DNA of 44,535 nt. It comes from Chlorogloeopsis fritschii PCC 6912 (lineage in GTDB: Bacteria; Cyanobacteriota; Cyanobacteriia; Cyanobacteriales; Nostocaceae). This document shows, piece after piece, positions 11,562 to 37,074 of this stretch; positions within the stretch are counted from its first letter, which is position 1; each line of letters starts with the position of its first letter. A program made the position numbers and the translations under genes. The notes under the pieces are model-generated. The model saw only the letters and a program-made list of their open reading frames with translations. It searched no databases and was not told where the DNA came from. The stretch spans positions 1 to 44,535 of the forward strand of contig NZ_AJLN01000039.1 of NCBI RefSeq assembly GCF_000317285.1, written 5' to 3'.

Positions 11562-11600
11562 TTAGGGAACAGGGAACAGGGAATAGGGAACAGGTGAAGA
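11562..11600. repeat. Short tandem repeat, GGGAACA/GGGAATA type
   Basis: Imperfect 7-8 base units (gggaaca, gggaata) follow the kinase stop codon directly. This is a typical short tandemly repeated repetitive sequence of filamentous cyanobacteria. No coding role is seen. Confidence 0.6.
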
Positions 11601-25229: not shown

Positions 25230-25283
25230 CAGCAGACTCCTATGAACTACAGTTCACGAGCAAGTACGAAAATTTGCTTTCTC

Positions 25284-25374
25284 TAGCCTCTAGCCCCTAG
25301 CCCCTAGCCCCTAGCCCCCAGCCCCTAGCCCCTAGCCCCCAGCCCCCAGCCCCTAGCCCCTAGCCCCTATTTTC
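25284..25374. repeat. Heptanucleotide tandem repeat, 13 units of YAGCCCC
   Basis: Thirteen consecutive 7-base units fill exactly 91 bases: TAGCCCC mostly, CAGCCCC at units 6, 9 and 10, and TAGCCTC as the first. This is a typical STRR of heterocystous cyanobacteria. Unit number probably differs between strains. Confidence 0.95.
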
Positions 25375-35247: not shown

Positions 35248-36126
35248 ATGGAATCAAATTTTTTGACGGCTGTTTTTCTGCCCTTGGCTTTATTTATCAT
35301 TATGCTGGGTATGGGACTGACCTTGACTTTGAATGACTTCAAGCAGGTGTTAGTCTATCCTAAGGCGGTAATTATTGGTTTACTAGCACAGTTGGTAATG
35401 TTGCCGATAGTGGGTTTTGTAATTGCGTCAATATTTTCCCTCAGCCCAGACTTGGCTGTTGGTTTGATGATTCTAGCAGCTTGTCCTGGTGGTTCTACTT
35501 CCAACATGATTACGTTTTTAGCTGGGGGAGATGTTGCCCTGTCGATTACACTAACAGCCGTTAGCAGCTTAATTACTGTCTTCACAATTCCCTTGGTTGT
35601 AAATCTGTCAATGCAGAGTTTTCTGAGGGAAAGCACAACCTTGCAACTACCGTTTTTGAGTACTGTTTTACAAATCGCAGTGATTACAATTGTGCCAGTA
35701 TCACTTGGAATGCTCATCAAGCGTTACATCCCTGGCTTTGCTAAACAAGCAGACAAGTCTGTGAAATGGCTGTCTTTATTTTTCCTAGCGGTAGTCATTG
35801 CCGGAGTGCTCCTCAAAGAGCGCAATAACTTTGTCTCCTTTGTGATAGATGTAGGTTGGGTAACTCTGGCTTTGAATGTGGTATCAATGGCTCTAGGATT
35901 TGCGATCGCAACTTTAACCCGATTGAGTCAACAACAGGCTACGGCAATCACAGTGGAAGTGGGAATTCAAAATGGCACTTTGGCGATCGCTATTGCTTCA
36001 GCACCAACGCTACTCAATAGCCCAACAATGGCTATTCCCGCTGCAATTTATAGCCTGCTAATGTTTGTTACTGGGGCGGGGTTCGCTTGGTGGGCAAATC
36101 GCCGTTCAACTTTATCAAAGGCATAA
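35248..36126 (+). CDS. Bile acid:sodium symporter (BASS) family transporter
   Basis: Membrane transporter of 292 residues with about nine to ten helices. BASS landmarks are GMGLTLTLNDFKQVLVYPKA near 21-40, the sodium-site motif AACPGGSTSNMITFLAGGD near 77-95, and the second conserved segment VEVGIQNGTLAIAIA near 247-260. Members carry organic anions with sodium; plant plastid relatives move pyruvate (BASS2) and glycolate (BASS6), and a cyanobacterial BASS moves bicarbonate-like or other small acids only in the unrelated SbtA/BicA families, so the substrate is left open. The gene is divergent from the sugar permease at 35087 and precedes the hairpin block before purN. Confidence 0.9.
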   Translation: MESNFLTAVFLPLALFIIMLGMGLTLTLNDFKQVLVYPKAVIIGLLAQLVMLPIVGFVIASIFSLSPDLAVGLMILAACPGGSTSNMITFLAGGDVALSITLTAVSSLITVFTIPLVVNLSMQSFLRESTTLQLPFLSTVLQIAVITIVPVSLGMLIKRYIPGFAKQADKSVKWLSLFFLAVVIAGVLLKERNNFVSFVIDVGWVTLALNVVSMALGFAIATLTRLSQQQATAITVEVGIQNGTLAIAIASAPTLLNSPTMAIPAAIYSLLMFVTGAGFAWWANRRSTLSKA

Positions 36127-36251
36127 TTTACATAATTTAAGTAGGTAGACACAATTAAACGTAAAATGCTTACGCCCATAAATTAGATAGGACAAGCTTT
36201 TCAGCTTCTGCCCTCTGCCTCCTGCCCCTCCGAAGTTTGGATTGCCATGCA

Positions 36252-36362
36252 GGTGCGGCGGGGGCAGAAAAATCGGAGATTTTTCTGCTGTCGGCAGAGC
36301 CGACGCTGTGGTTGCACAGCAACCACAGCTATCCCCGCTCGCACCATCGGAGGAAGCCTCCG
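36252..36362. other. Structured block: three perfect triloop hairpins inside an outer stem, plus a fourth hairpin
   Basis: Hairpin A: CAGAAAAATC (36265-36274), loop GGA, GATTTTTCTG (36278-36287). Hairpin B: GTCGGC (36290-36295), loop AGA, GCCGAC (36299-36304). Hairpin C: GCTGTGGTTGC (36305-36315), loop ACA, GCAACCACAGC (36319-36329). An outer stem of 12 bp with one bulge encloses them: GGTGCGGCGGGG (36252-36263) with CCCCGCTCGCACC (36333-36345). Hairpin D follows: CGGAGG (36348-36353), loop AAG, CCTCCG (36357-36362); CGGAGG could alternatively pair with CCTCCG at 36227-36232. All stems are perfect except the single bulge. Together it would fold as a four-way junction. It ends 37 bases before the purN start. 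Confidence 0.8.
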
Positions 36363-36399
36363 CTCCAACTTCTCTCTGCCCTCTGCCCTCTGCCTTTTT

Positions 36400-37074
36400 A
36401 TGAGTAATTCTTCAATCATAGATACTTCTACTCCTTGCCTAATTTCTCCTCATCTTCCCAGCCAGCAATTTTCCCAAGGTACTCCTTTAAAATTGGGTGT
36501 TTTGGCTTCAGGAAGTGGTAGTAATTTTGAGGCTATTGCCAATGCCATCCAAAACGGGCAACTTAATGCCCAAATCCAAGTTTTGATTTACAATCAGCCA
36601 CAGGCTTATGCTGCTGTGCGGGCGGCTAATTGGAATGTACCATCTGTACTTCTCAACCACCGCGACTATAACAGTCGCGAAGATTTAGATCGGCAAATTG
36701 TGCAAACTTTGCGGCAGTATAATGTGGAATTTGTGGTTATGGCTGGTTGGATGCGACTGGTAACGCAAGTATTAATTGATGCTTTTCCTCATAGAATTAT
36801 CAATATTCATCCCAGCTTGTTGCCCAGTTTTAAAGGTGTGCGTGCCGTAGAACAAGCCTTAGCTGCTGGTGTAAAAATCACTGGCTGTACGGTGCATTTG
36901 GTTTCTCTAGAAATGGACAGCGGCCCGATTTTAATCCAAGCAGCAGTTCCCATCATGCCTGATGATACACCAGAAAAACTCCACGCCAGAATTCAACTGC
37001 AGGAACATCAGATTTTACCGCAGGCGATCGCTCTGACAGCCCAAAAACTACAGGCTCTAAACACAACCTCGTAA
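36400..37074 (+). CDS. purN: Phosphoribosylglycinamide formyltransferase (GART)
   Basis: Purine synthesis enzyme that transfers a formyl group from 10-formyl-THF to GAR. ATG 36400 gives 224 residues; the frame is open further upstream to 36247 but that part runs through the hairpin block and is not protein-like. After 30 variable residues the Rossmann-like domain begins (LKLGVLASGSGSNFEAIANAI, with the phosphate-binding GSGSN). Catalytic residues are visible in INIHPSLLPSFKG (Asn and His) and in GCTVHLVSLEMDSGPILIQA (Asp). VMAGWMRLVTQ is the folate-binding part. No good ribosome-binding site is seen before 36400, and the structured block just upstream may affect translation. Confidence 0.93.
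   Translation: MSNSSIIDTSTPCLISPHLPSQQFSQGTPLKLGVLASGSGSNFEAIANAIQNGQLNAQIQVLIYNQPQAYAAVRAANWNVPSVLLNHRDYNSREDLDRQIVQTLRQYNVEFVVMAGWMRLVTQVLIDAFPHRIINIHPSLLPSFKGVRAVEQALAAGVKITGCTVHLVSLEMDSGPILIQAAVPIMPDDTPEKLHARIQLQEHQILPQAIALTAQKLQALNTTS

Follow-up and report, generated by a model that had tools for sequence, protein, structure and literature searches.

The hairpin block that precedes purN in Chlorogloeopsis fritschii PCC 6912 is very probably one copy of a mobile element of filamentous cyanobacteria that is palindromic, nested, and non-autonomous. The block lies in a stretch of 44,535 nucleotides (the window), and comparison of its copies and relatives showed for this element a fixed insertion point, loop inversion, inverted copying, and stems kept despite sequence change.

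The composite is nested, with a 105-nt core (36241-36345, plus strand) in a palindromic shell and the shell in a heptamer array. The left half of the shell, CCTCCGAAGTTTGG, occupies 36227-36240, and its right half, at 36346-36372, includes a hairpin, both halves (plus strand) being recognizable from empty shells elsewhere in the genome. CCCTCTG-like units surround the composite, as a left remnant at 36209-36226, seen in the sequence and in the orthologous array of a second genome of the genus (G001), and as a right part at 36373-36396, seen in the sequence. Folding of the plus strand gave, in order, a mini hairpin TGC-CAT-GCA (36243-36251), the 5′ side of an outer stem, GGTGCGGCGGGG (36252-36263), arm 1, GCAGAAAAATC-GGA-GATTTTTCTGC (36264-36288, 11 bp), arm 2, GTCGGC-AGA-GCCGAC (36290-36304, 6 bp), arm 3, GCTGTGGTTGC-ACA-GCAACCACAGC (36305-36329, 11 bp), and the 3′ side of the outer stem, CCCCGC(T)CGCACC (36333-36345). 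In the comparison set A1 (6 sequences), pairing of the mini hairpin is kept in 6 rows (helix 2), the outer stem forms helix 3, and arm 2 pairs; arm 1 was further supported by arm and loop comparisons and arm 3 by arm comparison. All the stems named in the initial annotation are in the sequence, with two corrections: the 10 bp given for arm 1 are in fact 11 bp, and the outer stem, rightly given 12 bp, is not perfect, since it has one bulged T at 36339. Its fourth hairpin, CGGAGG-AAG-CCTCCG, was found at 36348-36362, the alternative partner proposed for CGGAGG is CCTCCG at 36227-36232, and the spacing to the purN ATG (36400), counted from 36362, is 37 bases as described. That annotation did not include the mini hairpin or the additional stem GAAGTT(T)GGA/TCCAACTTC. 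The fold energy of 36200-36400 was -87.3 kcal/mol versus -64.7 (SD 4.3) for shuffled sequences (z of -5.3), and 0 of 200 shuffles folded as well. Elsewhere in the window, a CTAGCCC heptamer array runs for 12.4 copies at 25283-25369, and further 7-base arrays begin at 11564, 18663, and 31587.

A BLAST search with 36220-36370 identified 16 places in the window's own genome (G000), and a model (R1) derived from six copies in two genomes gave 13 matches there at ten loci, namely C38 (the window), C92, C70, C107, C35, C121, C93, C45, C112, and C115, three of the matches being the same places on the other strand. The copy at C92 has the whole shell in common with the window copy and also lies among heptamer-like repeats, the one at C121 consists of the core only, and those at C112 and C115 are without 30 positions, arm 1 among them. 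A coreless shell, CTCCGAAGTTTGGATCGGAGGAAGCCTCCGCTCCAACTTC, was present at C83 (L015), and a pattern search of the genome yielded eight empty shells (five exact and three with one mismatch), seven of which retained an intact GATCGG, with no match for the reversed-pattern control. Comparison of filled and empty shells, together with the core-only copy at C121, placed the insertion of the core at GG^ATCGG.

Smaller forms also occur: L013/L021, L016, and L027 have a single arm, L012 is an outer stem without arms, and L121 is a solo of 24 nt. The initial annotation held that hairpins found separately as independent dispersed repeats would speak against a composite, and shells and single arms do occur alone; the multi-arm unit, however, is also copied whole. 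The empty shells, the single-arm forms, and 24-nt solos such as L121 would suit separate dispersed palindromes that inserted repeatedly into one another and never moved as a whole. We consider this very unlikely, since five near-identical full copies in the genome have the same arms, order, and shell core, and since the three-arm order recurs in other genera. The proposal of a composite mobile palindrome was supported by the dispersed copies, the empty shells, the purN site of G001, which is without the element, and changes on both sides of the stems.

In a DNA search of 100 genomes including the window's own, three were matched (the own genome, G001, and G043), and R1 over 60 genomes likewise matched three (the own genome, G001, and G029). 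The G029 copy gave access to a sister subfamily in Cylindrospermum, with 8, 17, and 33 matches in G029, G100, and G101, respectively, short pieces included, and a second model (R2), built from 13 copies of this sister subfamily, matched 29 of 192 genomes of the family, in 12 of 56 genera, the copy numbers being lower bounds, with 19 candidates scored per genome. R2 did not match the window copy even at an E value of ≤1, and its only match in the window's genome was at C67; this locus (L169, G000:C67:81692-81779), found by R2 only, is a two-armed-looking relative at HIP1. Given ten loci of other subfamilies, R1 found five at an E value of 2.8e-7 or better (L045, L214, L203, L081, and L035, the last two being one Cylindrospermum place given twice) and missed L087, L174, L193, L224, and L148. 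The kinship of the subfamilies thus rests on part of these tests, because R2 misses the window copy and R1 finds 5 of 10, and also on the common ends and insertion point and on the shell-like flanks of the genus-g46 copies. Neither a search of viral contigs with the exact core pattern nor a blastn search of a plasmid collection with one genus-g46 copy gave a match.

The relatives lie mostly at GCG^ATCGC, the HIP1 octamer, and the window copy at the HIP1-like GG^ATCGG of its shell. GCG preceded 22 of 28 representative inserts and was absent before the other 6; in a crude count of the 91 parsed copies (of 101), it preceded 37, and many of the non-GCG copies in that count belonged to genus g46, with a left flank that was shell-like or GAGCC. 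The model searches favor GCG-flanked copies, because R1 and R2 include those columns. Orthologous genes gave the point directly: gloB of G000 has an intact HIP1 (GTGCGATCGCCAAAA) exactly where G001 has a 63-nt one-arm insert, and an amidohydrolase gene of G133 has an intact HIP1 (TATAGCGATCGCCTC) exactly where G182 has a 105-nt three-arm insert, although the G182 copy, with TTCGC at both insert ends, also fits a 5-bp duplication of a mutated target. The insert ends, which pair in the fold, read ATYGC and CACC or GGGCG, and shell copies have ATTGC or ATCGC at the left end and ATCGG as the right flank, with no duplication beyond ATCG. Since the core brings its own left end (ATYGC; ATTGC in the window), no duplication beyond the common ATCG is needed. 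An 8-base repeat around the C45 copy, ATCGCAAA, was considered as a target duplication and rejected as chance, because ATCGCAAAGCG also starts another element, L160. One locus of another genome (L170, G130:C5:59310-59415) was composed of tandem short HIP1-derived units (CATCGCCTTTGGCGGGGCTTTGCC repeated) and is not a three-arm element.

Y1 elements insert at a short fixed motif without clear duplication. A small, palindromic, dispersed, and geneless element with just such an insertion mode, in a genome with nine Y1 loci, might be a common IS-derived MITE, or a REPIN mobilized by a transposase of the Y1 (RAYT) type. This origin is rather unlikely, as the insert ends as read bear no GTAG or CGTC tag, shell copies, which start with ATTGC or ATCGC and are flanked on the right by ATCGG, show no MITE-type target duplication, and no copy lies beside any of the nine Y1 loci in the fetched flanks, where only four matches of 15 to 16 bases occurred; a Y1 transposase was accordingly rejected as partner within the flanks compared, and the comparison yielded no enzyme for the element. 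REP/REPIN sequences, dispersed palindromes without genes in the available text of PMC3116915, are alike in that respect and differ in being tagged and served by RAYT, neither a tag nor a linked Y1 gene having been found here. For the non-autonomous palindromic element that we prefer, a putative enzyme would recognize the core as folded single-stranded or cruciform DNA and copy it into G^ATCG sites. The family offers a visible target rule (G^ATCG, mostly HIP1), and the movement of elements this small becomes open to direct testing.

Several copies lie in frame within genes. A conserved protein common to G000 and G001 (L009/L018), which had no Pfam match when L018 was searched, carries an in-frame insert, as do a PKS-like open reading frame (L025, named by eye), an epimerase (L087), an FGE-sulfatase (L226), and the amidohydrolase (L154); the inserts in gloB (L027; protein with Lactamase_B and HAGH_C domains) and in a prephenate dehydrogenase gene (L162) are in frame and antisense. 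Insert-free orthologs were compared for gloB and the amidohydrolase, and the other gene inserts were read by frame. Most of the 101 copies are without a spanning open frame of 130 residues. The insert length is a multiple of three in 23 of the 28 representatives (exceptions L013, L016, L021, L160, and L174), and 19 of 22 three-arm inserts measure 102, 105, 108, or 111 nt, the others being L023 (141 nt), L160 (104 nt), and L174 (110 nt); many genus-g46 copies have 110 nt. Automated boundaries gave remainders of 0, 1, and 2 on division by three in 67, 8, and 21 copies (n = 96), a tally that includes related copies and some wrong edges, because these boundaries erred (5 of 101 copies unparsed and several misplaced, e.g., L006, L090, and L213). 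Of the 168 frames of the 28 representatives, 106 were open versus 56.7 expected from fold-keeping shuffles, a scarcity of stops that is suggestive only, because the 28 inserts are related. By these counts, the inserts are mostly of whole-codon length and apparently poor in stops.

The closest known systems are SDR5 and the Rickettsia palindromic elements. SDR5, a Nostoc SDR, inserts between bases 3 and 4 of HIP1, according to the available text of PMC4390886. Relatives here use the same insertion point, a likeness judged by description, and the 24-nt solo form (L121) lies at the same point of HIP1. SDR elements are said, in Elhai et al. 2008, to be 21 to 27 nt long and nested in heptamer repeats, with compensatory changes. 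The 105-nt window core with its three independent arms is outside that range, into which only solos such as L121, at 24 nt, would fall, and the element differs further from SDR5 by loop inversion and in-frame inserts. Rickettsia palindromic elements are described, in the available parts of PMC10969869 and PMC3733652, as mobile, about 100 to 150 bp long, and in frame inside genes. Compared by description, in-frame insertion in genes is found for relatives here, whereas the window copy is located ahead of purN; Rickettsia belongs to another phylum, and the element here has a fixed HIP1 target and a multi-arm build. Besides Rickettsia, the hosts of this family may be a second lineage in which proteins take up palindromes in frame. 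In the literature searched, we found no account of this family with several arms, of loops inverted in it, or of cyanobacterial inserts that lie in frame at HIP1, and Elhai et al. 2008 may give one.

The gene behind the window copy is purN (36400-37074, plus strand, 224 amino acids), taken from the open reading frame list and supported by a Formyl_trans_N match (E value of 1.3e-56) and a protein match from 36400. Its frame is open back through the element, and a start at 36247 is possible on paper (36247-37074, 275 residues), so that an annotation program could place a 275-residue purN start inside the mobile element. A leader switch controlling purN had been suggested. The gene was present in all 40 genomes from the protein search; purN loci were compared in 30 genomes, including the window's own, with flanks of 1.5 kb except at two contig ends (L065 and L080), and neither R1 nor R2 matched any of the 29 other loci at an E value of ≤1. 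Element-free purN sites in close relatives had been proposed as a check, and G001, whose purN is 92% identical to that of the window, has the heptamer array only at this site, with flanks 91% identical over 1,320 bases. By these comparisons, the window element is apparently without a conserved role at purN.

Selection for a structured RNA or leader switch that is only incidentally mobile would account for the strong fold and for the both-side changes in A1, and RNA intermediates have reportedly been suggested for SDR elements in Elhai et al. 2008. Both-side changes affected 15 of 46 pairs in A1 (shuffle mean, 6.6), and 90.2% of cells paired versus 31.6 to 55.7% when the sequences were slid. 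The signal was weaker in A3, a set of 13 similar sequences left after L087, L093, and L114 were dropped from 16 rows: the 4 both-side pairs of 42 were a modest number, reached by 16 of 500 shuffles, and the count of pair types stood at the chance level (243 of 500 shuffles), with 9 both-side cells versus 2.7 in shuffles and a covariation score of 0.082 versus 0.050 (0 of 500 shuffles as high for each). The three arms of L087 (G007) are very unlike those of Cylindrospermum and still form perfect triloop hairpins. The covariation check in A1 showed stems kept through changes on both sides. Conservation of the element strand as RNA should leave more G.U than A.C; G.T and A.C mismatches numbered 17 and 16 in 151 distinct arms, 10 and 18 in A1, and 9 and 13 in A3, counts that are small and leave room for an other-strand RNA preference. 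Rfam covariance models gave no match at an E value of ≤1 on either strand of 36000-36700, the loops are inverted among copies, and R1 and R2 are absent from the other purN loci, so that an RNA kept by selection appears highly improbable. The loop inversions would call for a DNA-level process and, with G.T not above A.C, favor renewal of the palindromes at the DNA level rather than conservation as an RNA. Compensatory changes normally serve to prove that an RNA structure exists. In this dispersed family, both-side changes occur with exact loop inversions and without a G.U preference, so that hairpin copying at the DNA level may mimic RNA covariation, a warning for structured-RNA searches.

Across the 101 collected copies (L177 gave no sequence), 16 stems, defined by the 7 bp beside the loop, bear more than one loop type, and 32 of their 42 loop types have the exact reverse complement on the same stem, whereas 20,000 random sets averaged 2.0 and never exceeded 16. 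The pairs include AAA/TTT, GAA/TTC, AGA/TCT, GGA/TCC, GATA/TATC, and GGCT/AGCC; in the window subfamily, the arm 1 loop reads GGA in five copies and TCC in the single copy at C35. Same-genome copies that differ at most in their loops gave 65 arm comparisons, 23 flipped and 42 the same, which came from 22 copy pairs and were not independent. In four G144 copies (L193, L194, L195, and L197), arms 1 and 2 occur in each of the four possible pairings of their orientations, and no flip was seen in the three comparable arms of three orthologous pairs. Chloroplast DNA has hairpin-associated small inversions, in which a loop between inverted repeats occurs in both orientations; in the available text of PMC2903610 these are a single-locus spacer feature, whereas here every arm of a dispersed element is involved. 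For measurements of loop inversion, the family provides many natural replicates.

In the mobile element that we favor, hairpins would be re-copied as DNA, by template switching or by recombination between their two sides, which would keep the arms paired and would also invert the loops. More tentatively, and with real doubt, we suggest that it represents a gene-tolerant class of mobile palindromes in Nostocaceae, HIP1-targeted, in which DNA template switching during copying renews and inverts the independent arms, perfect pairing is a by-product of movement, and whole-codon length and few stops were shaped by landing in genes, where about 35 residues are added to proteins. In L192 and L202, from two genomes, arm 3 has grown from 11 bp to 24 perfect bp, which looks like inverted copying of its right side over the left. 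The loop flips and this extension are read as DNA events, which may be template switching or recombination within hairpins. Arm 3 is also altered in two copies of G101 (L109 and L111), in which it holds a further insert starting GACGCTCCTAACGTCG.
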